From Blastococcus atacamensis (GTDB lineage Bacteria > Actinomycetota > Actinomycetes > Mycobacteriales > Geodermatophilaceae), in assembly GCF_002938425.1 (NCBI RefSeq), contig NZ_POQU01000017.1, positions 1-53,626 of the forward strand: a stretch of DNA of 53,626 bases, read 5' to 3'. The notes under the pieces were generated by a model. The model worked only from the letters and a program-made list of their open reading frames with translations. It did not search any database and had not been told where the DNA came from. This document shows positions 61 to 33,723 of the stretch, one piece after another. A program made the position numbers and the translations under genes. Numbering within the stretch: position 1 is the first letter of the stretch; every line of letters starts with the position of its first letter.

Positions 61-1548
61 GTGTCCGCGCAGTCGTCGAGTCGTCCTGAGCCCGAGCCCG
101 TGCCCGCGGCCGTCCAGGAGACCGTCCGCCGGCTCGTGGAGCTCTCCCCGGTCCTGACCGAGCTGGGCGAGCGCTTCGCCGCTGCCGGCTTCGAGGTGCA
201 CCTGGTCGGCGGGTCCGTGCGTGACGCCCTGCTGTCCGCCGGTGCCGGCGCGATCCGCGTCCCCGGCGACCTCGACGTCACCACCGACGCCCGCCCCGAG
301 CAGGTCCTCACCCTGCTCCGGGGGTGGGCTCGTTCCACGTGGAACACCGGCATCGCCTTCGGCACCGTCGGCGCGGACATCGGCGGTGAGCGCGTCGAGA
401 TCACCACGTTCCGCGCGGACCGGTACGACCGCGAGTCCCGCAACCCCGAGGTGGCGTGGGGCGACTCGCTCCTCGACGACCTGGTACGCCGGGACTTCAC
501 GGTCAACGCGATGGCCGTCAGCCTCGGGCCCGACCGGACGGTGACCGATCCCTTCGGCGGGCTCGGGGACCTGCTCGCACGGCGGCTGCGAACCCCCGGC
601 ACGGCCGAGGAGTCCTTCGCCGACGACCCGCTGCGCATGCTGCGTGCCGTCCGGTTCGTGGCGCAGCTCGGCCTCACGCCGGCCGAGGAGGTCGTCACGG
701 CGATGACCTCGCTGGCCGGGCAGCTGGCCCGCATCACCCCGGAGCGGGTGCAGACCGAGCTCTCGAAGACCCTGCTGCAGGACTCGCCGCGCGCCGCGCT
801 GGAGCTGTTCGTCTCCACCGGCCTGGCCGACGTCGTCCTCCCCGAGCTCTCCGCCCTCCGCATGGAGATCGACGAGCACCACCAGCACAAGGACGTCTAC
901 ACGCACTCGCTGACCGTCCTCGACCAGGCCATCGAGCTCGAGAAGGCCGACCCCGACAGCGGCTCCCCCGACCTCGTGCTGCGCCTGGCCGCGCTGCTGC
1001 ACGACATCGGCAAGCCGGCCACCCGCCGGCACGAGCCCCGTGGCCGGGTGTCCTTCCACCACCACGAGGTCGTCGGGGCCAAGCTGGTGCGCAAGCGGCT
1101 GCAGGCGCTCAAGTACTCCAAGGAGGTCGTCGAGGCCGTGGCCCGGCTGACCTTCCTCCACCTGCGGTTCCACGGCTACGGCAAGGGCGAGTGGACCGAC
1201 TCCGCCGTCCGCCGCTACGTCACCGACGCCGGGGACCTGCTCCCCCGCCTGCACAAGCTGGTGCGCTCGGACTCCACGACCCGCAACAAGCGTCGGGCGG
1301 CGGCACTGGCGGCCACCTACGACTCGCTCGAGGAGCGGATCGCGGTGCTGGCCGACCAGGAAGACCTCGCCCGTGTCCGCCCCGACCTCGATGGCAACGC
1401 GATCATGGAGATCCTCGGGGTGGGGCCGGGTCCCGAGGTCGGCGCCGCGTGGCGCTTCCTCAAGGACCTGCGCCTGGAGCGCGGGCCGCTGGACCCGGAG
1501 GACGCCGAGGCCGCGCTGCGCGCCTGGTGGGCGGAGCGCTCGGCCTGA
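61..1548 (+). CDS. cca: CCA tRNA nucleotidyltransferase
   Basis: Adds or repairs the 3'-terminal CCA of tRNAs in the cytoplasm. The 495-aa product has the class II nucleotidyltransferase head (GGSVRD at about residue 50, then DLDVTTDA near 70 carrying the two metal-binding Asp), the neck/body region with RRDFTVNAMA and DPLRMLRAVRF, and a C-terminal HD phosphohydrolase-like domain (LLHDIGKP near 313, FHHHE). This is the long actinobacterial form with the HD domain. The GTG at 61 is chosen because a TAGTCT -10 hexamer lies 8 nt upstream and the MSAQSSSRP head is followed directly by the conserved start of the fold. In mycobacteria the orthologue (pcnA, Rv3907c) is close to the replication origin. 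A parS-like palindrome lies inside the gene at 332-345. Confidence 0.95.
   Translation: MSAQSSSRPEPEPVPAAVQETVRRLVELSPVLTELGERFAAAGFEVHLVGGSVRDALLSAGAGAIRVPGDLDVTTDARPEQVLTLLRGWARSTWNTGIAFGTVGADIGGERVEITTFRADRYDRESRNPEVAWGDSLLDDLVRRDFTVNAMAVSLGPDRTVTDPFGGLGDLLARRLRTPGTAEESFADDPLRMLRAVRFVAQLGLTPAEEVVTAMTSLAGQLARITPERVQTELSKTLLQDSPRAALELFVSTGLADVVLPELSALRMEIDEHHQHKDVYTHSLTVLDQAIELEKADPDSGSPDLVLRLAALLHDIGKPATRRHEPRGRVSFHHHEVVGAKLVRKRLQALKYSKEVVEAVARLTFLHLRFHGYGKGEWTDSAVRRYVTDAGDLLPRLHKLVRSDSTTRNKRRAAALAATYDSLEERIAVLADQEDLARVRPDLDGNAIMEILGVGPGPEVGAAWRFLKDLRLERGPLDPEDAEAALRAWWAERSA
332..345. other. putative parS site 1 (ParB binding)
   Basis: GTTCCACGTGGAAC, a perfect 14-bp palindrome inside cca (codons for RSTWNT). 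It matches the centromere parS core (consensus GTTTCACGTGAAAC in actinobacteria, TGTTNCACGTGAAACA in Bacillus) with one symmetrical T-to-C change per half. Two more exact copies occur in this window at 10804 and 32847. Confidence 0.65.
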
Positions 1549-1607
1549 CCGAGGGATCCGGCGACGGCCGGCTCCAGAAGCCGGGTGCCGATGCCGAGAT
1601 ACCTGTC

Positions 1608-2573
1608 GTGCACCCGCAGGCCCCCGACGACCGCGGCCCCTCCCTGCCCGCGTCCCCGTCCGGGCGCGTGCCCCAGTGGGTGGTGCAGGAGGCCGCCGGC
1701 GGGGGCCCGGCCCCCGAGCCGTGGCGCGGCGCCACCCCGCCGCCTCCGCGCCGGCGCCGGTGGGGCGTGTGGAGCGGACTGCTGGTCACCGCCGCCGTGG
1801 CCGGTGCCGTCACGCTGGTCGACCCGTCGGAGCTGCCGTGGGGGCAGCGGCTGCCCCAGGCCTCCCCCGGGCCCCCGGCGACGTCGTCGCCGGCCCGGCC
1901 CACCGACCGGCCGAGCCCGAGCGGGCTGTCGGTCCCCCTGGGTCCTCCTCCGCTCCCGCCCCCGGTCCGGGGTACGCACGGTTTCACGACGTTCCAGGAC
2001 GACGGCGTGACCCCCGTGGCCTACGACCCGTGCCGCACCGTCCACTACGTCCTCCGCCCCGACGCCGCGCCTCCTGGCGGGGAGCAGCTGGTGCACGACG
2101 CGCTGCTGCGCGTCTCGGAGGTCACCGGCCTGGTCTTCACCTTCGACGGCTACACCGACGAGCCCCTCACTCCCGAGCGGGCGGTCTACCAGCCCGATCG
2201 CTACGGCGACCAGTGGGCGCCGGTGCTGATCGGCTGGCAGACCGAGGGAGAGAACCCCGCCCTGGCCGGTGACGTCGTGGGCGAGGCCGGCAGCGTCGCG
2301 GTCTCGCTCGGCGACGGGCCGCGGGTGTTCGTCAGCGGCACGGTCAGCCTGGACTCGGTGCAGTTGCCGGAGATCCTCGGGGAGCGCGACGGTCCGGCCG
2401 TCGTCCGGGGCATCGTGCTGCACGAGCTCGGCCACCTGGTGGGCCTGGCGCACGTCGACGACGACGGCGAGCTGATGTACCCGGAGGCCCGGCGGTCCGT
2501 CACGGACTTCGCCCCGGGCGACCTCACCGGCCTGGCCACCCTGGGCGCCGGGCCCTGCGTGCCCGAGCTCTGA
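1608..2573 (+). CDS. membrane-anchored matrixin-like zinc metalloprotease
   Basis: About 321 aa. A Pro/Gly-rich cytoplasmic head is followed by one membrane segment (GVWSGLLVTAAVAGAVTLV, about residues 52-71), a Pro/Ser-rich linker, then an extracellular domain ending in the extended zinc motif HELGHLVGLAH (about residue 272) and a downstream MYPE that fits the Met-turn of the metzincin fold. This is the peptidase M10A/matrixin-like arrangement. The zinc ligands (three His) and catalytic Glu are all present. Substrate unknown. The start is uncertain: GTG 1608 is the first in-frame start after the cca stop, GTG 1668 is the next; neither has a good ribosome binding site. It follows cca by 59 bp on the same strand and converges on the MFS gene. 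Confidence 0.8.
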   Translation: MHPQAPDDRGPSLPASPSGRVPQWVVQEAAGGGPAPEPWRGATPPPPRRRRWGVWSGLLVTAAVAGAVTLVDPSELPWGQRLPQASPGPPATSSPARPTDRPSPSGLSVPLGPPPLPPPVRGTHGFTTFQDDGVTPVAYDPCRTVHYVLRPDAAPPGGEQLVHDALLRVSEVTGLVFTFDGYTDEPLTPERAVYQPDRYGDQWAPVLIGWQTEGENPALAGDVVGEAGSVAVSLGDGPRVFVSGTVSLDSVQLPEILGERDGPAVVRGIVLHELGHLVGLAHVDDDGELMYPEARRSVTDFAPGDLTGLATLGAGPCVPEL

Positions 2574-2603
2574 GCCCTCCGACGTCCGTGAGGCCGGGGC
2601 CGC

Positions 2604-3875
2604 TCAGCGCCGGGCCATGCGGGTGTGCAGCACCGCCGTGAGCACGTAGCCCGCGCCCACCACCGCCAGCAGCGGCGGCGAGACGCCGGAACCCGGCAGG
2701 ACGAAGGCGGCCGCGACCAGGGCCGCGACGTAACCGACGTTGACCACCGTGTCGTACACGGAGAACACCCGGCCCCGGTGGTCGTCGTCGATGCGCTCCT
2801 GCAGCGTCGCGTCGACGCAGATCTTCACGCCCTGGCTCATGAACCCGAGCAGGAACCCGGCAGCCACCGCCGCTCCGGGCTGCAGCAGCAGACCCAGGCC
2901 CAGCTGGGCCAGGCCACCGGCCACGAGCAGCAGTGCGGTCCAGCGCCGGGTGCCGATCCGGGCGACTCCCGCCGGGGTCACGCCGGCCGCGAGGAGGGTG
3001 CCGGCGGCGCCGGCCGTGACCACCTGGCCCAGGCCGGTCAGGCCGCCGGGGAAGAGCCCCGTGCCGGCCGAGAACGTGGAGCGGTGCAGCAGCAGGGCCA
3101 TCAGCGTCAGGACGCCGAACAGGCAGCGGTGCAGCCCGATGGCCGTGAGGGCCGCGCGGGCAGGCCGGTCCCGCCACGCGTGCCGGGCGCCCGACGCCAT
3201 CCCGGCGAGCACCTGGCCGGCCGTCAGCAGAGCCGTCCGGGCCGTGGAGTCCGGGCCCAGGGAGGCGCGGTCGAAGCCGGACACCACCGCGGCCGAGGCG
3301 AGGTAGGGCAGGGCGGCGACCAGCGCCAGGACGGCGTAGCCCGCATCCGCCGAACCCGTGACCGGGAGCAGCACCAGGGCCACGCCGCCACCGGCCACGG
3401 TGGCGACGGACCCCGCCGTCGTCGACAGCGCATTGGCCCTGACGAGCGAGGGGACGTCGGTCGTGTGCGGCAGGCCCGCCGACAGCGCCGCGAGGACGAA
3501 CCGGTTGACCGAGAAGACCGCCAGTCCCGCCGCGTAGAACGCCGGGCCCTGGACGCCGGTCAGGATCAGCGCGGCCACGGCGGCCACCAGGCCCGCACGG
3601 AGGAGGTTCGCCCGGACCAGGACCTGCCGGCGGCTCCAGCGGTCCAGCCAGACCCCCGCGAACGGCCCGACGACGGAGTAGGGCAGGAGCAGCACGGCGA
3701 AACCGGCGGCCACCCCGACCGGGTCGGTGGCCCGCTGCGGGTTGAAGAGGATGGTGCCCGCGAGAGCGGCCTGGAAGACGCCGTCGCCGAACTGCGCGAG
3801 CAGCCGGGTGCCCAGGAGTCGGCGGAAGTCGGGGCGGGTGAGCAGGCCGCGCAGCGTCGTCCCCGTCGTGGCCAC
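2604..3875 (-). CDS. MFS transporter
   Basis: A 423-aa polytopic membrane protein of the major facilitator superfamily. The N-terminal half shows RLLAQFGDGVFQAALAG, then FAGVWLDRWSRRQVLV, the motif-A-like cytoplasmic loop between TM2 and TM3. The C-terminal half repeats the pattern with GRVFSVYDTVVNVGYVAALV. Length and about 12 hydrophobic segments fit a drug or metabolite efflux MFS (the MFS_3/enterobactin exporter-like group). Substrate cannot be read from sequence. GTG at 3875 is preceded by TAGTCT and 6 nt, so the mRNA is probably leaderless. It is convergent with the matrixin gene and divergent from yqgE. Confidence 0.88.
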   Translation of the reverse strand: MATTGTTLRGLLTRPDFRRLLGTRLLAQFGDGVFQAALAGTILFNPQRATDPVGVAAGFAVLLLPYSVVGPFAGVWLDRWSRRQVLVRANLLRAGLVAAVAALILTGVQGPAFYAAGLAVFSVNRFVLAALSAGLPHTTDVPSLVRANALSTTAGSVATVAGGGVALVLLPVTGSADAGYAVLALVAALPYLASAAVVSGFDRASLGPDSTARTALLTAGQVLAGMASGARHAWRDRPARAALTAIGLHRCLFGVLTLMALLLHRSTFSAGTGLFPGGLTGLGQVVTAGAAGTLLAAGVTPAGVARIGTRRWTALLLVAGGLAQLGLGLLLQPGAAVAAGFLLGFMSQGVKICVDATLQERIDDDHRGRVFSVYDTVVNVGYVAALVAAAFVLPGSGVSPPLLAVVGAGYVLTAVLHTRMARR

Positions 3876-3881
3876 GCGGCC

Positions 3882-3887
3882 AGACTA
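3882..3887 (-). promoter_or_regulatory. -10 hexamer of leaderless MFS mRNA
   Basis: On the minus strand TAGTCT ends 6 nt before the GTG at 3875. The hexamer is identical to that before cca. Confidence 0.5.
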
Positions 3888-3965
3888 AGGAGGGCCGGTC
3901 CTCCCGCCGTCGTGCCGCGAGCGCGGCCCGCACCCGGAGCGGTCCGGTGGGGCACACTGGGGAAG

Positions 3966-4628
3966 ATGTCCCCGGTGCCCGCGTCGCCCGATCCCGAGTC
4001 CGGTCCGCCCAGCCGGCCCGTGACCGGCCGTCGCCGCGCGCCGGCGGTCCCGGCCCTGTCCATCGGGTGCCTCGACGACGTGAGCGCGGGCAGCCTCCTG
4101 GTGGCGATGCCGTCGCTGCAGGACCCCACGTTCGCCGGCACGGTCGTCTACGTCCTGGACCACTCCGACACCGGGACGCTGGGCGTGGTCCTCGGGCGTC
4201 CCAGCCAGGTGGAGATCCGCGACGTGCTACCCGGCTGGTGCGACCTGGCTGTGGCGCCGGGGGTCTTCCACGTGGGCGGACCGTGCGAGACCGACACCGC
4301 GCTGTGCCTGGCCACCGCCGGTGCGCCGGACCCCGAGGCGGGGCTGCGGCCGGTGGCCGGTGACGTGCACCTGGTCGACCTGGACGGGGACCCCGCCGCG
4401 CTGGCCGGCCGGCTCACCGGTCTGCGGGTCTTCGCCGGCTACGCGGGCTGGTCCCCGGGTCAGCTCGCAGGGGAGATCGCCGAGGGTGCGTGGGCCTGCG
4501 TCCCGAGCCGCCCGGGTGACGTGCTCGGCGACCTGTCCGGGCCGCAGCTGTGGCGCGAGGTCCTGGGCCGTCAGACCGGCCGGCTCGCGGTGCTCTCCAC
4601 GGCGCCGGCGGATCCCGCCGCCAACTGA
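3966..4628 (+). CDS. YqgE/AlgH family protein (UPF0301)
   Basis: A 220-aa protein of the YqgE/AlgH family. Diagnostic segments are SAGSLLVAMPSLQDPTFAGTVVYVLDHSDTGTLGVVLGRPS, here split by an ordinary family linker, then GVFHVGGPCETDTALCL and VFAGYAGWSPGQLAGEIAEGAW. An N-terminal extension of about 40 residues is rich in Pro/Arg. The family has a known fold but no settled biochemical function; AlgH was linked to alginate regulation in Pseudomonas. The ATG at 3966 follows GGGGAAG very closely and also a CACACT hexamer 7 nt upstream, so it may be leaderless. It ends in a bidirectional terminator. Confidence 0.88.
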   Translation: MSPVPASPDPESGPPSRPVTGRRRAPAVPALSIGCLDDVSAGSLLVAMPSLQDPTFAGTVVYVLDHSDTGTLGVVLGRPSQVEIRDVLPGWCDLAVAPGVFHVGGPCETDTALCLATAGAPDPEAGLRPVAGDVHLVDLDGDPAALAGRLTGLRVFAGYAGWSPGQLAGEIAEGAWACVPSRPGDVLGDLSGPQLWREVLGRQTGRLAVLSTAPADPAAN

Positions 4629-4688
4629 GCGGTCGGCGCGCCGCGCGAAGAGCTGCGCGTCGGCGCACGGTCTGGTAGAAAAGATGTC

Positions 4689-4730
4689 GGGAAGGGCGGT
4701 CTGGGGAAGAGACCGCCCTTCCCACTTTTC
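4689..4730. terminator. bidirectional intrinsic terminator
   Basis: Perfect 14-bp stem (4689-4702 with 4710-4723), 7-nt loop GGGGAAG, then ACTTTTC on the plus strand and GAAAA upstream, which gives a T tract on the minus strand. It lies between the convergent yqgE and lipoprotein genes and can serve both. Confidence 0.85.
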
Positions 4731-4783
4731 TGCCCTCAGCCGGGTTCGGCGGCGAGCGCGCGAACGGACAGCGGGATCCCTGT

Positions 4784-5545
4784 TCAGAGGCCGAAGGCCG
4801 CCGCCACCCGCGGGTGGTCCGCCGTGGCCGCCGTCTCCTCCTCAGCGGGCAGTGCCACCCGCCGGGTTCCGTGGTCGGCCAGCGTGAGCGTGACGTCCAG
4901 GCCGCTGTCCGGAAGCGTGGCGCGGTACTGCACCAGCGTCCGGTCCCCCGCGTCGACCGCGACGGTCCGCCCCTCGCGCAGCCGGTAGACGACGGTCGGA
5001 CGCCCGTCGATCGGCTCCTCGGCGTGCCACCGGTACGGCCCGTCGAGGAACAGCGCCGGGTCGTCCGCCTCCGGTTGGGCCAGGTTGAGCAGCATCTCGA
5101 CCAGGACGTCGAGCAGCTCCGGGTCCTCGGGATCGGCCGGCAGCGCCCGCCGCAGGTAGGCCGCGTCCGGCGCGCCGTCGGCGGCCAGCGCCTCGGGCAG
5201 ACCGGGGACGTCGCCGGACCACAGCTCGTCGCGGTCGAAGAAGAGGGTGCGGGCGTCGTGCTCCTCGTCGTCGACGACGGTCACCGCCTGCGCCCGGCCG
5301 ATCCCGCGGCGGAAGTCGACCTCGCCGGTGAGCTCGAGCAGCGCGTCGTCGCCGACGGGCACCGTCACGACGAAGTCCGCGCCGCCCTCCTCGTGGTTGC
5401 GGTGCAGCAGCTCGGCCAGGATCCGTGCCTCGTCCTCGGTGACCGGCTCACCGGGCGAGCGCTCGTCGGTGGAGCAGCCGGCCAGGGCGAGGGCTGCGAG
5501 CGCGGCCGCGCACGCGCGAGGGGCGAGCGGGCGGCGGACGGGCAT
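4784..5545 (-). CDS. putative lipoprotein
   Basis: A 253-aa exported lipoprotein. The signal peptide has an Arg-rich head, a hydrophobic Ala/Leu core and the lipobox LALAGC with the lipidated Cys at residue 24. The mature part (EARILAELLHRNHEEGGADFVVTVPVG..., VTVVDDEEHDARTLFFDRDELWSG, ...VYRLREGRTVAVDAGD) resembles the all-beta half-barrel of LppX/LprG-like actinobacterial lipoproteins by overall pattern, but I cannot assign the family with certainty. An upstream ATG at 5575 is open, but ATG 5545 is preferred: it gives a normal signal peptide and has the -10 hexamer TACGCT exactly 6 nt upstream, so the mRNA is probably leaderless. Confidence 0.72.
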   Translation of the reverse strand: MPVRRPLAPRACAAALAALALAGCSTDERSPGEPVTEDEARILAELLHRNHEEGGADFVVTVPVGDDALLELTGEVDFRRGIGRAQAVTVVDDEEHDARTLFFDRDELWSGDVPGLPEALAADGAPDAAYLRRALPADPEDPELLDVLVEMLLNLAQPEADDPALFLDGPYRWHAEEPIDGRPTVVYRLREGRTVAVDAGDRTLVQYRATLPDSGLDVTLTLADHGTRRVALPAEEETAATADHPRVAAAFGL

Positions 5546-5593
5546 GGCGGAAGCGTAGGGAGCGCGGGCCCTCATCCCCGGGAGGAACGCGCA

Positions 5594-5624
5594 GGGCCCG
5601 CATCTCGCGAGGAGATGCGGGCCC
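5594..5624. terminator. GC-rich hairpin terminator downstream of ino1
   Basis: Perfect 13-bp stem (5594-5606 with 5612-5624) and 5-nt loop GCGAG, 29 bp beyond the ino1 stop and in the upstream region of the lipoprotein gene. There is no T tract, as often in high-GC actinobacteria. Confidence 0.7.
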
Positions 5625-5653
5625 AGGTGACGCGCTGCCTCCGGACGGGGTCC

Positions 5654-6730
5654 TTACGCGATGTCGCCGCGGATGAACGCCTCGACGGCGTCGCGGGCCT
5701 CGCTGTCGCTGTACTGGACCGGCGGGCTCTTCATGAAGTACGACGACGCCGAGAGGATCGGGCCGCCGATCCCGCGGTCCTTGGCGATCTTTGCGGCACG
5801 CACGGCGTCGATGATGATGCCGGCCGAGTTCGGGGAGTCCCAGACCTCGAGCTTGTACTCGAGGCTCAGCGGGACGTCACCGAAGGCGCGGCCCTCGAGG
5901 CGGACGTAGGCCCACTTGCGGTCCGAGAGCCACGGCACGTGGTCCGACGGGCCGATGTGCACGTTGTCCTTGCCCATGTCCCGGTCGACCTGGCTGGTGA
6001 CCGCCTGGGTCTTGGAGATCTTCTTGGACTCCAGGCGCTCGCGCTCGAGCATGTTCTTGAAGTCCATGTTGCCGCCGACGTTGAGCTGCATCGTGCGGTC
6101 CAGTTGCACGCCGCGGTCCTCGAAGAGCTTGGCGAGCACCCGGTGGGTGATGGTGGCTCCGACCTGGCTCTTGATGTCGTCACCGACGATCGGCACACCC
6201 GCGGCGGTGAACTTGTCCGCCCACTCCTTGGTGCCGGCGATGAAGACGGGCAGGGCGTTGACGAACGCGACACCGGCGTCCAGAGCGGCCTGGGCGTAGA
6301 ACTCGGCAGCCTGCTGGGAGCCGACCGGCAGGTAGCAGACCAGGACGTCGGCGCCGGACTCGCGCAGCGCGGTGACGACGTCGACCGGAGAATCGTCGGA
6401 CTCCTCGATCGTCTCGCGGTAGTACTTGCCCAGACCGTCGAGCGTCGTGCCGCGCTGCACGTTCACACCCAGCGGCGGGACGTCGCAGATCGTGATGGTG
6501 TTGTTCTCGCTGGCCACGATGGCCTCGGAGAGATCACGACCGACCTTCTTGGCGTCCACGTCGAACGCGGCGACGAACTCGATGTCGGAGACGTGGTACT
6601 CGCCGAACCGGACGTGCATCAGGCCGGGAACGGACGCCGTCTCATCGGCGTCCCGGTAGTAGTGGACGCCCTGAACGAGCGAGGCGGCGCAGTTACCGAC
6701 ACCGACGATGGCGACCTTGACTGACCCCAT
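5654..6730 (-). CDS. ino1: inositol-3-phosphate synthase
   Basis: NAD-dependent conversion of glucose 6-phosphate to myo-inositol 1-phosphate (1L-myo-inositol 3-phosphate), the entry to phosphatidylinositol, mycothiol and other inositol compounds of actinobacteria. The 358-aa product is the short bacterial form. It starts with the Rossmann motif [14 protein letters not shown], then has [11 protein letters not shown]-like [43 protein letters not shown] and SKTQAVTS, the conserved catalytic and NAD segments of the family. A GAAGGAGAG ribosome binding site precedes the ATG. The neighbouring PadR gene upstream on the same strand has the same arrangement as Rv0047c next to Rv0046c in M. tuberculosis. 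A 13-nt IR (GGACC-GTT-GGTCC, 6749-6761) lies just ahead of the ribosome binding site. Confidence 0.96.
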
Positions 6731-6828
6731 GACTCTCCTTCTCTCCCTGGACCGTTGGTCCGGTGTACGTGAACCGCGAGCGGTCCGGTGATGGCGAACG
6801 GCCGGGCCGGGGGGCCCTGCCGCCTGGT

Positions 6829-7488: not shown

Positions 7489-7512
7489 GTCGCCCCTCCG
7501 TCCCTCTCCTGT

Positions 7513-7535
7513 CGATGTATCGCCACGATACATCG
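7513..7535. promoter_or_regulatory. palindromic operator at the padR promoter
   Basis: CGATGTATCG-CCA-CGATACATCG: perfect 10-bp arms with a 3-nt centre, 25 bp upstream of the padR start. The outer ATGT...ACAT half-sites resemble those recognised by PadR-family proteins, though the spacing here (11 nt) is longer than the classic 8 nt. It also lies 110 bp upstream of the divergent DUF5318 gene. Confidence 0.7.
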
Positions 7536-7632
7536 CGGGGAGCGCCTGCTGCGCGGCGGTACGGTGGGGACGGGTGTGCTCGGCGCGACGCATGTCGCCG
7601 CGGGAGAGACACCATCCACGGCGTGCCGTGCG

Positions 7633-7638
7633 TACATT
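7633..7638 (+). promoter_or_regulatory. -10 hexamer of leaderless DUF5318 mRNA
   Basis: TACATT ends 7 nt before GTG 7646, with no ribosome binding site. This decides the start of the downstream gene. Confidence 0.6.
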
Positions 7639-7645
7639 GGCGGCC

Positions 7646-8062: not shown

Positions 8063-8080
8063 CCGGTCGGTCGGTCCACG

Positions 8081-10752: not shown

Positions 10753-12255
10753 ATGAGCACCGCACCCACGGGCCCGTCCGCCACCGCGGACGGGCCCGTG
10801 GCCGTTCCACGTGGAACGAGACTCCCCGACGGGCCGGACCGGGTGGTGCCGACCTGGACCGACCCTGTCGCCCGGCAGGCCAGCGAAGCAGTGGGCGGGC
10901 CGTGGGGCCGGTTCGCGGTGACCGGCCGGGCACTGTTCTGGACGCCGCTGCGCGTCTGCCTGCTGTTCGCCACGTTGGCGCTCGCCGTCGCCTGGGTCAA
11001 GCAGGCGCCGTGCGCCGACGGCGACTGGACGGGGAGCGTCCAGTACACGCACTTCTGCTACTCCGACACCATCCCGCTGTTCGGGCTGCACGGCCTCGAC
11101 GACGGCGCCCTCCCCTACCTGGACAGCGACGTCGAGTACCCGGTGCTCACCGGCGGCTTCATGGCCACGGCCGCGGCGCTCGCCGGCCTCTACGACCGGG
11201 CGGCCGGCGCCTCGTCGCTGCTCCCCTCGGTGCCGGTGGTGCAGAGCTACTACGTCGTCACCTGCCTCCTGCTCACCGTCTGCGCCCTCGCCGTCGTCCG
11301 GGCGGTGCTGGCGTTGGCCGGCCGGCGGCCCTGGGACGCGGCGATGATCGGGCTGTCCCCGCTGCTGGTGGTGCACGCGTTCACCAACTGGGACCTGTTC
11401 GCGGTGGCCCTGGCGACCCTGGGGATGTGGGCCTGGGCGCGCGACCGCCCCGTGCTGGCCGGCGTCCTGCTCGGCCTCGGCGTGGCGGCCAAGCTCTATC
11501 CGGCCTTCCTGCTGGGCGCGCTCTTCCTTCTCTGCCTCCGGTCGGGACTGCTGCGCGTCTGGCTGCGCACCACGGTGGCCGCGGTCGGCGTCTGGGTGGC
11601 GGTGAACGCCCCCGTCGCCTGGCTGGCGCCGGAGAACTGGGGCCGCTTCTTCCGGCTCAACAGCGTCCGCCCGGCCGATCCTGACTCGCTCTGGTACCTG
11701 GCGCTGCACCTCACCGACGACCGGATCCTCGACGGCCCGCTGGCCGAGGGACAGACCCCGGTGGCGCTCAACGCGCTGGTCGCCGTGGCACTGCTCGCCG
11801 GCGTGGCCGCGGTGGGGTGGCTGACCCTCTCGGCGCCGGTCCGCCCCCGGGTCGCCCAGATCGCGTTCCTCCTGGTGGCCGTCTTCCTGCTCACCAACAA
11901 GGTCTGGAGCCCGCAGTACTCGCTGTGGCTGCTTCCGCTGGCCGTGCTGGCGCGTCCGGGCTGGCGGTCGCTGCTGCTGTGGCAGGCGACCGAGGCGCTG
12001 CTGTGGGTGCCCCGGCTGCTCTGGTACCTGGGCCCGGACAGCCGCGGGGTGGACGTCGAGTGGTTCCACCTCGCGGTGGTGCTGCGCGACCTCGCCGTCG
12101 TCGTGCTCATGGCGCTGGTCGTGCGCGACGCGCTCGATCCCGACCGGGACGCCGTGCGCACCAGCTGGCCGGGCGTCGACGACCCGGCCGGCGGGCCGCT
12201 GCAGCACGCCCCCGACACCTACGTGCTGCGCAGTTCAGCCCAGCGCGTCCCGTAG
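10753..12255 (+). CDS. glycosyltransferase family 87 (DUF2029) membrane protein
   Basis: A 500-aa polytopic membrane protein in the position of Rv0051. After a polar head of about 60 residues there are around ten hydrophobic segments. Landmarks of the polyprenol-phosphate mannosyltransferase-like GT87/DUF2029 family are CYSDTIPLF...YLDSDVEYPVLTG after TM1 (with the acidic loop that normally carries the catalytic Asp), NWDLFAVALATLGMWAWAR, LGLGVAAKLYP and NKVWSPQYSLWLLPLAVL. It is expected to transfer a sugar from a lipid carrier on the outer face of the membrane; acceptor unknown. The start has a CACACT hexamer 6 nt upstream (possibly leaderless). A parS-like palindrome lies at codons 18-22. 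The last 21 bp overlap the nfo gene tail-to-tail. Confidence 0.85.
   Translation: MSTAPTGPSATADGPVAVPRGTRLPDGPDRVVPTWTDPVARQASEAVGGPWGRFAVTGRALFWTPLRVCLLFATLALAVAWVKQAPCADGDWTGSVQYTHFCYSDTIPLFGLHGLDDGALPYLDSDVEYPVLTGGFMATAAALAGLYDRAAGASSLLPSVPVVQSYYVVTCLLLTVCALAVVRAVLALAGRRPWDAAMIGLSPLLVVHAFTNWDLFAVALATLGMWAWARDRPVLAGVLLGLGVAAKLYPAFLLGALFLLCLRSGLLRVWLRTTVAAVGVWVAVNAPVAWLAPENWGRFFRLNSVRPADPDSLWYLALHLTDDRILDGPLAEGQTPVALNALVAVALLAGVAAVGWLTLSAPVRPRVAQIAFLLVAVFLLTNKVWSPQYSLWLLPLAVLARPGWRSLLLWQATEALLWVPRLLWYLGPDSRGVDVEWFHLAVVLRDLAVVVLMALVVRDALDPDRDAVRTSWPGVDDPAGGPLQHAPDTYVLRSSAQRVP
10804..10817. other. putative parS site 2 (ParB binding)
   Basis: Second exact copy of GTTCCACGTGGAAC, inside the 5' end of the GT87 gene (encoding VPRGT in its polar head). 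Confidence 0.65.
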
Positions 12256-19979: not shown

Positions 19980-19993
19980 GTTTCACGGGAAAC
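19980..19993. other. degenerate parS-like site
   Basis: GTTTCACGGGAAAC in non-coding DNA: one mismatch to the actinobacterial parS consensus GTTTCACGTGAAAC. It differs in type from the three exact GTTCCACGTGGAAC copies. Confidence 0.4.
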
Positions 19994-25041: not shown

Positions 25042-25045
25042 GGCG

Positions 25046-25723: not shown

Positions 25724-27076
25724 TCATCCCTCGGGCCTCCAGTCGGGCGGGTCGGCCGGCTGCAGCGCCGGGTCGTCAGCGGACAGCGTGCGCACCGGGC
25801 CCGGCGGCGTCCGGGGGCCCTCGAACCGCACCGTCACCCGGCCCAGGCCGCGTCCCCACACCCAGCCGGGTCCGAGCTCCTCGTGCCGCACGTCCTGCCC
25901 CGGCCACCAGCGCTTCTCCACCGGCAGCGCCGGAGCCTCCTCGGGGACCGCCGCCTCGGGCTCCGGTTCCGGCCCGGTCCCGTCGTCGACCTCGACGTGC
26001 CCCTCGGCGAAGAGGTCGCCCTGGGCGTAGACCGACAGCCCCGATACGCCGACGCCGAGGAGTCGGAGCCCACCCCCGGTGCCGGCCTCGGCGAGCAGCC
26101 GGCGGGCGGTGGAAGCGATCAGGCGGGAGTCGTCGGTCGGCTGCGGGAGCGTCTGCGAGCGGGTCAGGGTCGTGAAGTCGTAGCGGCGCAGCTTCAACGT
26201 CACCGTCCGGCCGGAGATGGCGCCCTTCCGGAGCCGCTCCCCCACGCGGGTGGCCATCGAGTCGATCTCCCGGTTCAGGACGGCGACGTCGGTGAGGTCG
26301 CGCTCGAAGGTCTCCTCGTGCGAGACGGACTTGACGTCCCGGTCGGGGACGACGGCGCGGTCGTCGTCGGCGCGGGCGAGCGCGTGCAGCCCGGCGCCGT
26401 GCGCTCGGCCGACGAGCGCGACGAGGTCGGTCAGCGAGCGGGCGGCCAGGTCGCCCACCGTCTTGACCCCCACCTGGTGCAGCCGTTCGGCGGTGGCCGG
26501 GCCGACGCCGCCCAGCCGGGTGACCGGCAGCGGGTGCAGGACCTCCAGCTCCCGGCCCGGCGCGACCACGACCAGGCCGTCGGGCTTCTGCAGGTCCGAG
26601 CCGATCTTGGCCATGAGTTTGGAGCTGCCGATGCCCACCGAACCGGTGACGCCGCCGGTCGCCTCCGCGATCCGCTCCTTGAGGTCCCGGGCCAGTGCGG
26701 AGACGCCGTCCAGCGACAGGTCGAGGCCGTCGGCCGCCGCGAGGTCGACGTAGGCCTCGTCGATCGACACCGGCTCCACCAACGGGGACACCTCGCGCAG
26801 CAGCCCCATGACGACGTCGGAGGTGCGCCGGTAGGCGGCGAACCGGCCGCCCAGGAACGCCGTTCCGGACGGGCACCGCCGCCGGGCCTCCGCCGTCGAC
26901 ATGGCCGAGCGGGCGCCGTACGCGCGCGCCTCGTAGGACGCCGTGGCGACGACGCCGCGTCCTCCGACCCCGCCGACGACCACCGGCCGCCCCCGGAGCG
27001 ACGGTTTGTCGCGTTGTTCCACAGCCGCGAAGAACGCATCGAGATCGAGGTGCAGGATGCTCGGGATTCCCCTCAC
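25724..27076 (-). CDS. dinB: DNA polymerase IV (Y family)
   Basis: Error-prone translesion polymerase, 450 aa. LHLDLDAFFAAVEQRD and SIDEAYVDL carry the catalytic acidic residues; SSKLMAKIGSDLQKPDG and the HhH region GVGPATAERLHQVGV follow; the little-finger domain is near RRYDFTTLTRSQTL. A C-terminal extension of about 95 residues (Glu/Pro-rich, then WWPGQDVRHEELGPGWVWGRG) is typical of some actinobacterial DinB proteins. There is no evident LexA box just upstream, so it may not be SOS controlled. Start GTG; the reading begins at the conserved HLDLDAFF. Confidence 0.94.
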   Translation of the reverse strand: MRGIPSILHLDLDAFFAAVEQRDKPSLRGRPVVVGGVGGRGVVATASYEARAYGARSAMSTAEARRRCPSGTAFLGGRFAAYRRTSDVVMGLLREVSPLVEPVSIDEAYVDLAAADGLDLSLDGVSALARDLKERIAEATGGVTGSVGIGSSKLMAKIGSDLQKPDGLVVVAPGRELEVLHPLPVTRLGGVGPATAERLHQVGVKTVGDLAARSLTDLVALVGRAHGAGLHALARADDDRAVVPDRDVKSVSHEETFERDLTDVAVLNREIDSMATRVGERLRKGAISGRTVTLKLRRYDFTTLTRSQTLPQPTDDSRLIASTARRLLAEAGTGGGLRLLGVGVSGLSVYAQGDLFAEGHVEVDDGTGPEPEPEAAVPEEAPALPVEKRWWPGQDVRHEELGPGWVWGRGLGRVTVRFEGPRTPPGPVRTLSADDPALQPADPPDWRPEG

Positions 27077-27263
27077 GACCAGCGCCTCACCCCGCCATTG
27101 TCCGTGCCGCCACCGATCCCGGGGAGGATCCCCGTGCTCCGCGAGCTGCAGCCCGGCACCGCTCCGGTCCCGGGACGCGACGTTCCCATGCGATCGGCAG
27201 GCTCCGGAACCGGCCTCCGGTCCGTGCCCCCCGCCGGCCCGGCGGACCGACGTAGGAGGACTC

Positions 27264-27758
27264 GTGCGCCGTCAGCAGTCACCGGTGACCGTCCGCGTCC
27301 CCGGGCGGAACGTCGGCGAGGCGGTGGCCCGGCTGACGACGGTCGCGGACCGCGAGCGCGCCCGCCGCCCACGCAGGCCCGGCGACCTGCGCATCCGGGT
27401 GCGCCCCGACGGCCGGGTCCGGATCGGGCGGCTCTCCGGCAGCTCGCTGTCCTACCCGACGCTGCGCGGCGGCCTGGAACCGGCGCCCAGGGGTGGCGTG
27501 CAGCTCACGGGCACGGTCCGCGAGGACGGCGCCGGCCTCCTCGTCATCGGCGGAGAGGTCCTGGTCGGGGTGGTCGGGCTGGTCCTGATCCTCGCCGGGG
27601 TGTCGTCCGGCGAGCCGGGGGGTGTGGTCGCCGGCGGCTTCTCCCTCGTGCTGGGCGTCGTCGTGGCATGGGTTCTGCACCGGCTGCGGCGCGGCTTCGG
27701 AACGGAGGCCGACGAGTTCGTCGGGGTGCTGGAGCGGGCGCTCGGGCGCAGGGGATGA
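27264..27758 (+). CDS. membrane protein of unknown function
   Basis: A 164-aa protein. An N-terminal soluble part of about 90 residues (VRVPGRNVGEAVARLTTVADRERARRP..., LRIRVRPDGRVRIGRLSGSS) is followed by two membrane segments (GGEVLVGVVGLVLILAGV and GVVAGGFSLVLGVVVAWVL) and a short basic tail. I do not recognise it. GTG 27264 has TAGGAGGA just upstream. It is convergent with glpK. Confidence 0.7.
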   Translation: MRRQQSPVTVRVPGRNVGEAVARLTTVADRERARRPRRPGDLRIRVRPDGRVRIGRLSGSSLSYPTLRGGLEPAPRGGVQLTGTVREDGAGLLVIGGEVLVGVVGLVLILAGVSSGEPGGVVAGGFSLVLGVVVAWVLHRLRRGFGTEADEFVGVLERALGRRG

Positions 27759-27771
27759 GGAGCCGGCGGGC

Positions 27772-29292
27772 TCAGCTGACGTCGTCGTCCACCCAGTCCA
27801 GGCTCTTGGTGACCGCCTTCTGCCAGTTCCGGTAGGTGCGCTCGCGCTCCTCGTCGGCCATCGCCGGCTCCCAGCGCTTGTCCTCCGCCCACTTGGCGGT
27901 CAGCTCGTCCAGGCCGCTCCAGAAGCCGACCGCCAGGCCCGCGGCGTAGGCGGCGCCCAGCGCCGTGGTCTCGGCGATCCTCGGCCGGATGACCGGGACG
28001 TCGAGCAGGTCGGCCTGGAACTGCATGAGCAGCTCGTTCCCCACCATGCCGCCGTCGACCCGCAGCTCGGTGAGGTCGACCCCGGAGTCGGCGTTCATCG
28101 CGTCGAGGACCTCGCGGGTCTGGAAGGCGGTTGCCTCCAGCACCGCGCGGGCCAGGTGGCCGCGGTTGACGAACCGGGTGAGGCCGACGACGGCGCCACG
28201 GGCGTCGGAGCGCCAGTGCGGGGCGAAGAGGCCGGAGAACGCCGGGACGAAGTAGGCGCCGCCGTTGTCGTCGACCTCGCGGGCCAGGTCCTCGATCTCG
28301 GGGGCGCTGGAGATCATCTTCAGGTTGTCCCGCACCCACTGGACCAGCGAGCCGGTGACCGCGATCGAGCCCTCCAGCGCGTAGACCGGCTTGGCGTCGC
28401 CCAGCTGGTAGCAGAGGGTGGTGAGCAGGCCGTTCTCCGACGGCACCGCCTCCTCGCCGGTGTTGAGCAGCATGAAGTTGCCGGTGCCGTAGGTGTTCTT
28501 GGCCATGCCGCGCTCGAAGCAGACCTGGCCGAAGGTGGCCGCCTGCTGGTCGCCGAGGGAGCCGGAGATCGGCACGCCGGCGAGGAACCCGGACGTGCGG
28601 CCGGTCCCGTACTCCTCGGAGTTCGAGCGGATCTCCGGCAGCATGGAGACCGGGATGCCCATCTCGTCGGCAATGGCCTCGTCCCAGGCGAGCGTCCGGT
28701 AGTCCATGAGCATCGTGCGCGAGGCGTTGGAGACGTCGGTGAGGTGCTGGCCGCCGTCGCGACCGCCGGTCATGTTCCACATGAGCCAGGAGTCGATGGT
28801 CCCCATCAGTAGCTCGCCATTCTCGGCGCGCTTCCGGGCGCCCTCGACGTTGTCGAGGATCCAGCGGACCTTGGGGCCGGCGAAGTAGGTCGCCAGCGGG
28901 AGGCCGACCTTGTCCTTGTAGCGGTCCGCGCCGCCGCCCAGGGCGCCGAGCTCCTCGATGATCTTCGTGGTGCGGGTGTCCTGCCAGACGATCGCGTTGT
29001 GGACCGGTTCGCCGGTCCGCCGGTCCCAGACCACCGTGGTCTCGCGCTGGTTGGTGATCCCGACGGCGACGATGTCGGAGACGCCGGCATCGCTGCGGGC
29101 GATGGCCTGCGCGACCACCTCGCGGGTGTTGCGCCAGATCTCCATCGCGTCGTGCTCGACCCAGCCGGCGCGCGGGAAGATCTGCTGGTGCTCCTTCTGG
29201 CCGACGGAGACGACGTTGCCGTCGTGGTCGAAGAGCATGCAGCGGGTGCTGGTCGTGCCCTGGTCGATCGCGGCGACGTACTGGTCTGCCAT
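27772..29292 (-). CDS. glpK: glycerol kinase
   Basis: ATP-dependent phosphorylation of glycerol to glycerol 3-phosphate. The 506-aa FGGY-family product begins [21 protein letters not shown] and keeps [33 protein letters not shown]-like [39 protein letters not shown] and the FGGY signature region [29 protein letters not shown] precedes the ATG. It lies downstream of glpF (25-bp gap) on the same strand, and divergent glpD completes the pathway. Confidence 0.97.
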
Positions 29293-29317
29293 GGGTCTTC
29301 TCCTCGGGAACGGGACG

Positions 29318-30058
29318 TCAGATGGGGACGTGCGAGAACAGGCCGGCGAGGACGGCGCCCACCAGCGGGCCGACGACGGGGACCCAGGAGTAGTCCCAGT
29401 TGCTGCTGCCCTTGCCGCGGATGGGGAGCACGGCATGCGCGAGGCGCGGACCCAGGTCGCGCGCGGGGTTGATGGCGTAGCCCGTCGGGCCACCCAGCGA
29501 GACACCGATGCCCACGACCAGCAGCGCCACCGCCAGCGGGCCCACCTCGGTGGGCGTGTCCCCGAAGCGCAGCACGACGTAGACCAGGACGAACGTGCCC
29601 AGCACCTCGGTGACCACGTTGTCGGGGATGCTGCGGATCGCGGCGTTGGTGGAGAAGGTGCCCAGCGCGGCGCCGGGCTCGTTGTCCGGGTCGTCGTAGT
29701 GCCGGCGATACGCGGCCCAGGCGCCGACGGCGCCGGCGAAGGCGCCGAGCAGCTGGGCGAGCACGTAGACGGCGGTCGAGGCCCAGGTGACGGGCACGCC
29801 CGGGGCGTACTCGTCCGCACCGCTGGCCCACAGGCCGGCGGTGATCGCCGGGTTGATGTGCGCCCCCGAGCTGGCCGCGGCGTACACGGCGGCGAAGACG
29901 GCCAGACCCCAGCCGAAGGCGATCGTGATGATGCCGCCACCGTTGCCATAGGTCTTGGACAGGGTCACGTTGGCGACCACGCCCACGCCCAGCAGGATGA
30001 GGAAGAAGGTGCCGACGACCTCGCTGCCGAAGACGGTCCACAGGCCGACGGACTCCAC
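29318..30058 (-). CDS. glpF: glycerol uptake facilitator / aquaporin (MIP family)
   Basis: A 246-aa channel with six membrane segments and both NPA boxes ([11 protein letters not shown] and [10 protein letters not shown]). The Asp after the second NPA region (NPARDLGPR) is the residue typical of glycerol-permeable members. GTG 30058 is used, with GGAGGAGG 8-11 nt upstream; a GTG further upstream (30163) is open but has no support. Transcribed with glpK; glycerol enters through it and is trapped by the kinase. Confidence 0.92.
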
Positions 30059-30129
30059 GCGGCGCCTCCTCCCCGTCGGTGGTGCGGCTCCCGGGCGGGC
30101 CCTCGGGGGATCGAGGTCGGCCAGGCCCG

Positions 30130-30155
30130 TGTGACCGTAAGCACGACCTGTGACC
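30130..30155. promoter_or_regulatory. direct repeats in the glpF/glpD divergent promoter
   Basis: TGTGACC occurs at 30130-30136 and 30149-30155, 19 nt apart, in the region shared by divergent glpF and glpD. Possible regulator half-sites; no known operator recognised. Confidence 0.3.
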
Positions 30156-30255
30156 CGCTGCAACGGGATCGGTGGCGGTGCCCGCAGCCGACGCCACGGC
30201 CTGTCGCGGGAGCCCGTCGCCGCCTACCGTGGGCGGCGATCGCCGGAGGTGTTCG

Positions 30256-31986
30256 ATGTCCTCAGTTCCCGTGCTCGGTCCGCAGCAGCGAGCCCAGGCG
30301 TGGGCGGAGTTGGCCGAGGGCCGGTACGAGGTCCTCGTCGTCGGGGGCGGGGTCACCGGCGCCGGGGTGGCCCTGGACGCCGCGACCCGTGGCCTGCGCA
30401 CCGCGCTGGTCGAGGCCCGGGACTTCGCCAGCGGCACGTCGTCCCGCTCGTCCAAGCTCTTCCACGGCGGCCTGCGGTACCTGGAGCAGTTCGACTTCGG
30501 CCTCGTCCGCGAGGCCCTGCACGAGCGAGACCTGAACGTCACCCGCCTGGCGCCGCACCTGGTCAAGCCGGTGCCGTTCCTCTATCCCCTGACCCACCGG
30601 GTGTGGGAGCGGCCCTACGTCACGGCCGGCCTGGCCCTCTACGACGGGCTGGCCCGCGTCGGCGCCCTGTCCACGCCGATGCCGCCGCAGCGGCACCTCA
30701 CGCGCACCGGGGCGCGCAAGCTGTTCCCCGCGCTCCGACCGGAGGCCCTCGTCGGCGCGGTGCGGTACTACGACGCCCAGGCCGACGACGCCCGGCACAC
30801 CCTCGGGGTGGTCCTGACCGCGGCCCGCTACGGCGCCACGGTCCTGAACTCGGCCGAGGTGGTCTCGTTCGTGCACGCCGGCGGGCGGGTCGTCGGCGCC
30901 CGGGTCCGCGACGTCGAGACCGGCCAGGAGGTGGAGGTCCGCAGCGAGGTCGTCGTCAACGCCACCGGGGTGTGGACCGACGACGTCCAGACGTTGGTGG
31001 GCGGGCGTGGCCGCTTCCACGTGCGCGCCAGCAAGGGCGTGCACGTGGTCGTGCCCCGTGACCGGATCAACGGCGAGGTCGGCCTCATCCTGCGCACCGA
31101 GACGTCGGTGCTGTTCGTCATCCCGTGGGGAAGCCACTGGATCGTCGGGACGACGGACACCGACTGGAACCTGGACAAGGCCCACCCGGCGGCCAGCCGC
31201 GCGGACATCGACTACATCCTCGGACGCGTCAACGAGGTGCTCACCGTGCCGCTCTCGCACGACGACATCACCGGGGTCTACGCGGGGCTGCGACCGTTGC
31301 TCTCCGGCGAGAGCGAGTCGACCAGTCAGCTCTCCCGCGAGCACGCCGTCGCCCGCCCCATGCCGGGCGTCATCGCCGTCGCGGGTGGCAAGTACACGAC
31401 GTACCGGCCGATGGCCGCCGACGCCGTGGACGCCGTCGTGCAGGACGTCACCCGGCGGGTGCCGCCCAGCGTCACCGAGAACGTGCCGCTGGTCGGCGCG
31501 GAGGGCTACGCCGCGATGGTGAACCGGCTCGACGTCCTGGCCGAGCGGTGGGCGATCCCCCGCTTCCGCGCCGAGCACCTGCTCAACCGGTACGGCTCGC
31601 TGGCGCCGGAGGTGCTGGCCCTCGCCGACGAGGACCGCGACCTGCTGCTACCGGTACCCGGCGCCGAGCAGTACCTCATGGTGGAGATGGTCTGGGGCGC
31701 CGGGCACGAGGGAGCGCTGCACCTGGACGACCTGCTCGCCCGGCGCACCCGCATCTCCATCGAGACCCCGCACCGCGGGGTGGAGTCCGCCGACGCAGTG
31801 GCGCGGGCGGTGGCCGGGGTGCTGGGCTGGGACGCCGAGCGCGTCGCCAACGAAGTGGCCAGCTACATCGCACGCGTGGAGGCCGAGCGGGCCTCGCAGG
31901 CGGCATCCGACGACCGGGAGGCCGACGCGGTGCGGGTCGCCGCGCCCGACACCCGGGCGGTCGCCGTGGGACGGGCGCTGCGCTGA
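30256..31986 (+). CDS. glpD: aerobic glycerol-3-phosphate dehydrogenase
   Basis: FAD-dependent oxidation of glycerol 3-phosphate to dihydroxyacetone phosphate with electrons passed to the quinone pool. The 576-aa product has the FAD dinucleotide fold VLVVGGGVTGAGVALDAATRG (about 27-47), SRSSKLFHGGLRYLEQFDFGLVREAL, the conserved WGSHWIVGTTDTDW region, AVAGGKYTTYRPMA and a C-terminal helical domain (HLLNRYGSLAPEVLALAD, EGALHLDDLLARRTRI). ATG 30256 has GGAGGT 5 nt upstream. Divergent from glpF-glpK. The tail after about residue 545 is low-complexity. Confidence 0.96.
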   Translation: MSSVPVLGPQQRAQAWAELAEGRYEVLVVGGGVTGAGVALDAATRGLRTALVEARDFASGTSSRSSKLFHGGLRYLEQFDFGLVREALHERDLNVTRLAPHLVKPVPFLYPLTHRVWERPYVTAGLALYDGLARVGALSTPMPPQRHLTRTGARKLFPALRPEALVGAVRYYDAQADDARHTLGVVLTAARYGATVLNSAEVVSFVHAGGRVVGARVRDVETGQEVEVRSEVVVNATGVWTDDVQTLVGGRGRFHVRASKGVHVVVPRDRINGEVGLILRTETSVLFVIPWGSHWIVGTTDTDWNLDKAHPAASRADIDYILGRVNEVLTVPLSHDDITGVYAGLRPLLSGESESTSQLSREHAVARPMPGVIAVAGGKYTTYRPMAADAVDAVVQDVTRRVPPSVTENVPLVGAEGYAAMVNRLDVLAERWAIPRFRAEHLLNRYGSLAPEVLALADEDRDLLLPVPGAEQYLMVEMVWGAGHEGALHLDDLLARRTRISIETPHRGVESADAVARAVAGVLGWDAERVANEVASYIARVEAERASQAASDDREADAVRVAAPDTRAVAVGRALR

Positions 31987-32004
31987 CGCCGGCGCCCGCC
32001 CCGG

Positions 32005-33723
32005 TCAGCCCTCCGTGAGCGCCGCTGCGGGGAGCCAGTCGGCGTCGAGCAGCTCGGCGATCTCCCGGAGCGAGGCGGTGTCCGCGCCGGCGGTGGAGCC
32101 GCTCACGGCCAGCCGCTCCACCATCACCTTCGCCACCTGCTCCTCCACCGTGTCCGCCGCATAGGCGATCCGCCAGGGCGAGCTCTTCCCGTCGCGGTGC
32201 GTGCGCCCGGTGACCTGCCGCGCCTGGATGCCGGAGAACCGCGGTTGGTGGAACAACCCGACCCGCGGCATCTCCGAGGCGGTCGACCCGTCGGGCAGCA
32301 GCTCGCCCGCGTGCAGGCTGATCGACGCCGTCACCGTGAACACGCACACCATCGCCTCGCCCCGCTGGAAGCGCAGCCGCTCGGCCTCGACGTCGAACCG
32401 GTCGCGGCCGAAGATGGCGGCGACCGGGATCTTCGCGTCCAGCAGCGCCTCGCGGATCGGGTCCGCCGCCGTCTCGACGAACTCGACCGAGACGGCCACC
32501 TGGCGCTCCGCCTCGACCTGCGCCTTGATCCAGTCGACGGTGGCCTGCACCCGGATCAGCCCGGCCTTCTGGCGGAACCGCAGCAGCGCCGCGCGGCCCT
32601 TCGCGCTCTGCCGGGCCCGGCGCGCCAGCTGCATCTCGGCGCGGAACTGCGACCACTCCGCCTCGTAGGCCGCCCGCTCCGCGGGAGTGAGCAGGACCGG
32701 CGTCCCGGTCACCGACACCGGCCCCCACGGCGCGGGGCGGTGCAGCGTCGCCGGCGGATCGGCGTCGGCCAACCAGGACTGCAGCCGTGCCAGGTCCGAC
32801 CGTCGCTCGTCGGGATCCTCGCTCCACTGCCATCCGTAGCGGCCACGTTCCACGTGGAACCGATGCCGCTCCAGCGCCTTGGGGAGGTCGGCCCACTCCT
32901 TGATCGACTCGCCCTGGCGGGCGGCGAACTCCGGTGCCAGGTACGGCAGCTCCAGCGGGGTGTGCGCGGGGGTCGCGGTCGCCGCCAGCACGTACGGGGT
33001 GTCCTTGACCCGGGCGGCCCCGGAGACGGCCTTCCAGTGCTTCCACCGCTGCGTGGTCGTGTGCCGCACCATGTGCGCCTCGTCGGCCACGACGACGTCG
33101 AAGCGGAGCTTGGCGACCTTGCCGAGCCGGTCCCAGGTCGTCACGCACCAGCGCAGCCCGCCGTCGCCGAAGCCCGCGATCGAGCGAGACCAGTGCGGGA
33201 TGGTGATCGCCGCGGGCCGGTCGGCGATGACCAGCACCGTGCGCACCGGCCGCTGGGCGGCGATCTCGTGGACCGCCAGGATGGCGGTGCCGGTCTTGCC
33301 CACTCCGGGGTCATCACCGAGCAGGAACACCCGGCCCCCGGCAGCCGCGTGCGCGGCCACGACCGCCGCGCCGGTCTCCTGCGGCTCGCGCGGCACCAGC
33401 GCGGGGGGAACCGGCAGCGGGCGCGGCGTCTCGTTCAGCTCGTCCTCGAGGAACCGCTCCAGGCTGTAGGCGGGCGGGTCGTACGGGGCCAGCTCGGGCG
33501 GCAGGGACCGGCCGACCCAGACGGTCGCCTGCAGGCCCGGGTGCCAGACCGCACCCGGCGCCGGAGCCCGGAACGGCACGGCCAGCACCCATACCCGCTC
33601 CCCGGGCCCGGCCTCGGGGAGTTCTGGCGCCGGCTTCTTCGCCGATGCCCTGCGGGGTGCGGCCTTGCGGGTGCGGGTGGCGGTCGTGCTGCGGCTGCTC
33701 GTGCTGCGCCGTCGTCCTGGCAT
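32005..33723 (-). CDS. SF2/SNF2-type DEAH-box helicase
   Basis: A 572-aa helicase-like ATPase of superfamily 2, apparently without partner genes. A basic Ser/Arg/Thr-rich N-terminus (about 40 residues) is followed by Walker A GDDPGVGKTGTA (136-147), DEAH in VVVADEAHMVRH (214-217), motif III ATATPAHTP, and a C-terminal RecA domain with motif VI-like SGIQARQVTGRTHRDGKSSPWR. It resembles SWI2/SNF2-like ATPases in which R-D-G near the end contacts the ATP. Accessory domains typical of RapA or HepA were not seen. It contains the third exact parS-like palindrome and converges on glpD. Role unknown: repair, transcription recycling or a defence gene are all possible. Confidence 0.85.
   Translation of the reverse strand: MPGRRRSTSSRSTTATRTRKAAPRRASAKKPAPELPEAGPGERVWVLAVPFRAPAPGAVWHPGLQATVWVGRSLPPELAPYDPPAYSLERFLEDELNETPRPLPVPPALVPREPQETGAAVVAAHAAAGGRVFLLGDDPGVGKTGTAILAVHEIAAQRPVRTVLVIADRPAAITIPHWSRSIAGFGDGGLRWCVTTWDRLGKVAKLRFDVVVADEAHMVRHTTTQRWKHWKAVSGAARVKDTPYVLAATATPAHTPLELPYLAPEFAARQGESIKEWADLPKALERHRFHVERGRYGWQWSEDPDERRSDLARLQSWLADADPPATLHRPAPWGPVSVTGTPVLLTPAERAAYEAEWSQFRAEMQLARRARQSAKGRAALLRFRQKAGLIRVQATVDWIKAQVEAERQVAVSVEFVETAADPIREALLDAKIPVAAIFGRDRFDVEAERLRFQRGEAMVCVFTVTASISLHAGELLPDGSTASEMPRVGLFHQPRFSGIQARQVTGRTHRDGKSSPWRIAYAADTVEEQVAKVMVERLAVSGSTAGADTASLREIAELLDADWLPAAALTEG
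32847..32860. other. putative parS site 3 (ParB binding)
   Basis: Third exact copy of GTTCCACGTGGAAC, inside the SF2 helicase gene (minus-strand codons for FHVER). Confidence 0.65.

Follow-up and report, generated by a model that had tools for sequence, protein, structure and literature searches.

Three identical palindromes within genes of a Blastococcus-like actinobacterium as very probable parS sites of its chromosomal ParABS system

The closest described counterparts of the palindrome analysed here are parS sites of chromosomal segregation systems in Pseudomonas, Myxococcus, and actinobacteria. The parS sites of Pseudomonas aeruginosa (TGTTCCACGTGGAACM) and P. putida have the same 14-bp core in several copies near oriC, and those of P. 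aeruginosa are bound by ParB in vivo; the parS of Myxococcus xanthus (TGTTCCACGTGGAACG, 22 sites) has this core as well, again in many origin-proximal copies. The identical core is given as a known form of parS in PMC7022226, and two further papers describe the 14-mer as bound in ChIP-seq in P. aeruginosa (PMC5098823) and in an EMSA in M. xanthus (PMC3778016); the spelling itself is already known and is not new. The sites of the genome studied here differ from those of Pseudomonas in number and placement (eight over about 110 kb, some within genes, versus four bound sites close to oriC), and M. xanthus belongs to another phylum and has more copies. The parS of actinobacteria (Mycobacterium smegmatis GTTTCACGTGAAAC, Corynebacterium glutamicum TGTTNCACGTGAAACA, and Streptomyces coelicolor) is likewise origin-proximal, adjoins parAB in the same gene neighbourhood, and equals the palindrome save for one base per arm, with T at the fourth half-site base where the Blastococcus sites have C. 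A preliminary description of this DNA had read the palindrome as a parS core with one symmetrical T-to-C change per half-site, which agrees with this one-base difference per arm from GTTTCACGTGAAAC. The two spellings, GTTCCACGTGGAAC and GTTTCACGTGAAAC, are called the CC form and the TT form below. The open-licence papers of PubMed Central yielded no description of parS for the Geodermatophilaceae: no paper matching the exact 14-mer had an actinobacterium in its title, the matches for Blastococcus with parS were unrelated by title, and a match for Geodermatophilus with ParB speaks, in the passages found, only of actinobacteria having ParABS.

The window, meaning the whole 53,626-nt stretch of DNA analysed, is contig C73 of a 3.89 Mb genome in 163 contigs. 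An exact-match search of the window located the CC form at 332-345, 10804-10817, and 32847-32860, each copy in a different coding sequence and read in a different frame. The first lies in a cca, tRNA nucleotidyltransferase-like gene (61..1548, plus strand; Pfam PolyA_pol, PolyA_pol_RNAbd, and HD), where it covers codons 91-95 (R-S-T-W-N) in the frame nGT-TCC-ACG-TGG-AAC. The second is read as GTT-CCA-CGT-GGA-ACn (V-P-R-G-T) in a GT87 glycosyltransferase gene (10753..12255, plus strand; Pfam GT87), the likely start of which is the ATG at 10753, so that the site falls in the N-terminal tail. The third is read as nnG-TTC-CAC-GTG-GAA-Cnn (F-H-V-E) in a helicase-like gene on the minus strand (32005..33723; Pfam ResIII over the cut-off, SNF2-rel_dom and DEAD below it). 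Markov models of order 0 to 4 gave 0.0001-0.0005 exact copies expected by chance in the window, and the CC form was the sole repeated one among its 18 palindromic 14-mers. With up to three mismatches, eight matches were found versus 2.33 expected, a number reached in none of 100 shuffles of the window. The placement of the three copies in unrelated coding genes (cca, GT87, and helicase) and the estimate of fewer than 1e-3 chance copies, both put forward in the preliminary description, were thus reproduced.

The whole genome was then searched with the same form, using the reversed pattern as control. Eight exact copies were found (three on C73, two on C120, and one each on C133, C156, and C163), versus 0.008 to 0.04 expected from base statistics, and the reversed control had no exact match in the whole genome. 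Four of the eight are genic (cca, GT87, helicase, and a DUF2867 gene on C163) and four are intergenic. The CC sites, in the three window genes and elsewhere, fit the 14-bp palindrome pattern GTTYCACGTGRAAC, which with at most one mismatch was found at 18 places (8 CC sites, 1 mixed site, and 9 one-mismatch sites) versus 1 for the control. The mixed site, GTTTCACGTGGAAC, is at C156:11399, 33 bp from the parA-proximal CC copy at C156:11432. The TT form, the usual actinobacterial spelling, was absent from the whole genome.

Positions relative to dnaA were obtained by synteny with G006, a complete genome of the same genus (one contig of 4,297,415 bp, starting at dnaA) with eight CC sites, which match the eight CC sites of the present genome one to one. 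Because the present genome is in 163 contigs, the origin proximity of its sites rests on this synteny. The window sites at 332, 10804, and 32847 correspond to -19.1 kb, -29.6 kb, and -51.8 kb from dnaA in G006, and the remaining ones to -70.0 kb (C133:3860, where the alignment ends about 100 bp before the site), -4.1 kb (C156:11432), +9.8 kb (C163:1413), +33.7 kb (C120:19461), and +39.9 kb (C120:13515). The CC array of G006 thus extends from -70 to +40 kb of dnaA, or 110 kb (2.6% of the chromosome), an arc into which eight random places would all fall with a chance of about 6e-11, the arc having been picked post hoc. The neighbouring genes had been recognised beforehand as origin-proximal in other actinobacteria, with even scattering of the 14-mer named as the outcome that would speak against parS; all eight copies proved to lie, by synteny, within this arc.

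Clustering of this kind bears on an alternative reading, in which the sites are bound by a transcription factor whose operators have CACGTG at their centre. Operators are often palindromes with such a core, and a one-base relative of the site, GTTGCACGTGGAAC, occurs six times on contigs without CC sites. Against this, the three window sites are coding, none of them at a recognised promoter and one within 1.1 kb of a gene end; all eight sites cluster around the origin, the two that are closest together flank parA, and the 14-mer is identical to proven parS sites. Operators are on this evidence a very improbable explanation of the sites.

Single profile matches were found in the genome for ParB_N, on contig C156 together with parA, and for DnaA, on C163, which carries dnaA, dnaN, gnd, and recF-like genes. 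The order on C156 is MviN-like, trxB-like, trxA-like, parB, parA, the site doublet, rsmG, Jag-like, yidC, and rnpA-side genes; on both contigs ParA and ParB were named by Pfam and the rest by eye. The two sites of the doublet, 33 bp from each other, occupy the rsmG-parA gap on C156 (L018:11399-11445), beside parAB. Doublets less than 60 bp apart were seen 30 times in 33 loci of the family, some of which possibly represent one strain present in two collections; 27 were spaced 33-36 bp and 25 consisted of a CC and a mixed site. The doublet of G006 is an exception in that its second member is GTTTCACGTGGGAC, with one change.

The ParB of this genome has the Pfam domains ParB_N, HTH_ParB, and ParB_C, and among the best 80 of 574 relatives the closest was that of Blastococcus sp. 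TF02-8 (88% identity), followed by other Geodermatophilaceae. Residue positions in the DNA-binding segment (GRSRSQVTNTIRLMKL...SAGHAR) were carried over by eye from the Caulobacter sequence and are taken to be 173 and 201; in the alignment they hold the parS-type Arg and Gly. At two of the six contact residues common to ParB and Noc, 162 and 171, this protein carries His and Arg where the shared residues are Gln and Lys. These residues are relevant to the reading of the sites as targets of the nucleoid occlusion protein Noc rather than of ParB. Noc is related to ParB and has a palindrome that resembles parS; the two proteins are told apart by Arg and Gly (R173 and G201) in ParB as against Gln and Arg in Noc (PMC7383237). 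The genome was found to encode one ParB_N protein only, with no Noc paralogue beside it, its ParB has the ParB residues at both separating positions (as numbered above), and its sites have G1 and A6 in the half-site, as does parS, and not A1 and C6, as do Noc-binding sites (PMC7383237). Binding by Noc is accordingly regarded as having a negligible probability.

Conservation of the sites was examined at the level of the genus and in a detailed comparison of 17 genomes (the present one, G001-G008, and eight genomes that each represent another genus, with two places of G080 left out). Each of the 23 genomes of the genus has the degenerate form in 7-11 copies, and the control matched in none. Among the 17 genomes, the cca site and the parA-proximal site were found in register in 17/17, the helicase site in 16/17 (the exception being G107), and the GT87 site in 5/17 (the present genome, G003, G004, G008, and G006); in G007 the site at the GT87 place lies in a region that aligns just partly. 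Since the regions for codon comparison were chosen around the sites, their selection guarantees the presence of the 14-mer, and the fair counts are the 17/17 and 16/17 given above. Codon 91 of cca is CGT, GGT, or AGT (Arg, Gly, or Ser) with the ending GT constant, and a third-position T is used in 16 of the 496 codons of the window's cca. Codon 288 of the helicase gene is variable with a constant G as its last base; Glu 292 is encoded throughout by GAA, a codon that serves 2 of the 40 Glu in the window's gene. The bases of the 14-mer are fixed where the overlapping amino acid varies, and rare codons are retained, which indicates that selection acts on the DNA. Conservation in relatives was accordingly read as one of DNA and not of protein, with the choice of regions and the low count for the GT87 site (5/17) weighing on the other side. 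The length of the invariant runs was rejected as evidence, as cca has three other invariant stretches as long or longer (17, 17, and 15 nt versus 14 for the site) and the helicase gene has one longer than that of the site (17 versus 15).

These data also address the reading of the sites as codon-driven coincidences or as pieces of a repeated element, which has in its favour that three of the host reading frames are conserved genes. The copies stand in three different frames where 0.0001-0.0005 are expected, and bases are constant where the amino acid varies. No sequence common to the flanks past the 14 bp was found among the 126 distinct sites compared, and the conservation in register, in 16/17 and 17/17 genomes, contradicts coincidence and repeat alike, leaving them next to no likelihood. 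The base next to the 14-mer was T in just 51/252 positions of the same 126 sites; the outer T/A of Pseudomonas parS is thus unfavoured in the sites compared, and a 16-bp consensus was rejected.

Taken together, the sites, their clustering at the origin, their conservation at the DNA level, and a parA-parB locus with a doublet beside parA lead to the reading of the palindromes, almost certainly correct as judged from sequence, as three members of a set of eight or more parS sites that serve chromosome segregation by ParABS in a Blastococcus-like actinobacterium. Their equality with the parS bound in P. aeruginosa and M. xanthus counts for the same reading. By analogy with known ParABS biology, the single ParB would load at each parS and spread over neighbouring origin DNA, and ParA would move the resulting complexes, and with them the sister chromosomes, apart. 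The placement of the array around the replication origin would explain why its sites sit in genes that have nothing in common, and cca, GT87, and helicase would be bystanders, picked just for lying within about 70 kb of oriC. The result is a computed parS map for the Geodermatophilaceae, in which the 14-mer has a practical use in orienting draft contigs around oriC, and the in-gene sites provide a case for how a DNA signal is held within protein-coding genes.

The distribution of the two spellings was surveyed in the family and in the class. The CC form was found in 103/112 family genomes and 9/12 genera, in 4-15 copies each, with no control matches in all 112, and no TT form was found in the 16 CC genomes for which every site was listed (G000-G007 and eight others). 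The nine genomes lacking the CC form (G066-G074; L103-L111) belong to three genera and are smaller and partly incomplete (74-98% complete, four at 90% or more). They have one or two TT sites each, the control giving 3, 2, and 1 matches in three of them with one mismatch, and in the eight whose stretch held ParB the TT sites lie about 1 kb upstream of parB. Sites near parB were seen in 14/17 family loci, all of them CC or mixed and the other three loci being partial, versus the CC form in six of 63 loci from other families. Among 296 genomes sampled from the class, TT was present in 245 and CC in 43, with control matches of 1 in five genomes for the CC search and in one genome for the TT search; three or more CC copies were found in the present genome and in G135 only. 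One other family of the class (G135, G151, G166, G178, and G191) carries CC sites, and four of these five genomes have no TT site. This suggests a second origin of the CC form in that family.

The proposal that the spelling is lineage-specific stood in part: the CC form marks 9/12 genera of the family and is rare elsewhere in the class, but Pseudomonas and Myxococcus are known to have it too. What is modestly new, on the genomes compared, is its presence in those nine genera while the other three appear to have one or two TT sites only. In this lineage GTTTCACGTGAAAC would have been replaced by GTTCCACGTGGAAC through a change of the fourth half-site base from T to C in both arms. That base is a variable position among known parS sites. 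GC content appears unsupported as the sole cause of the CC form, since other high-GC actinobacteria keep the TT form. The coexistence within one family of many CC sites and of one or two TT sites offers a natural comparison for the drift and multiplication of a centromere sequence without loss of ParB.

ParB proteins were compared between the CC group (19), the TT genera of the family (8, since L104, of the 9, yielded no ParB), and other families (63). Lys229 and Thr232 of the present ParB were fixed in 19/19 proteins of the CC group, and Lys229 was found in 0/71 others. Thr232 was found also in 2/8 proteins of the TT genera, and six other-family ParBs from CC-carrying genomes (ParB being found in 6/12 stretches) lack Lys229 as well as Thr232, so that no single residue explains the change. 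A single-residue switch of ParB specificity was rejected, as no substitution tracks CC versus TT. The fourth half-site base is, to judge from these alignments, probably merely tolerated by ParB.

The asymmetric relative GTTGCACGTGGAAC or its complement, one base off the CC form, was found in six copies in the genome versus 0.013-0.02 expected, at C26:6255, C76:114814, C77:26182, C78:7769, C78:28221, and C141:13513 (L010, L013, L014, and L015). The flanks of the four copies inspected are unrelated. Three of these four are in frame in genes, encoding L-H-V-E by way of two rare codons, TTG and GAA, and their hosts were named by eye as a nickel-insertion protein, a creatininase-like protein, and an old-yellow-enzyme-like protein; the fourth is intergenic, just after a terminator-like hairpin. 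No match to GTTGCACGTGGAAC in either strand was found in the open-licence PubMed Central literature searched. It is conceivable, though rather unlikely, that in the Geodermatophilaceae ParB acts on DNA sites of two kinds, namely an origin array in which one or two ancestral TT sites gave way to 4-15 CC sites, several of them fixed in genes, and dispersed asymmetric copies of GTTGCACGTGGAAC; these copies could act as secondary sites for ParB from which it does not spread, a type reported in P. aeruginosa, or as operators of an unknown factor.

A further site in the window, GTTTCACGGGAAAC at 19980..19993, lies 24 bp downstream of a gene end and differs by one mismatch from the mixed and TT forms. 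In G006 a one-mismatch site, GTTTCCCGTGGAAC, was found at -35.8 kb, at about the matching place. From its position and from its letters, which recur upstream of parA/parB in Nocardia loci (e.g. L059 and L062), the 19980 site may be a degenerate parS.
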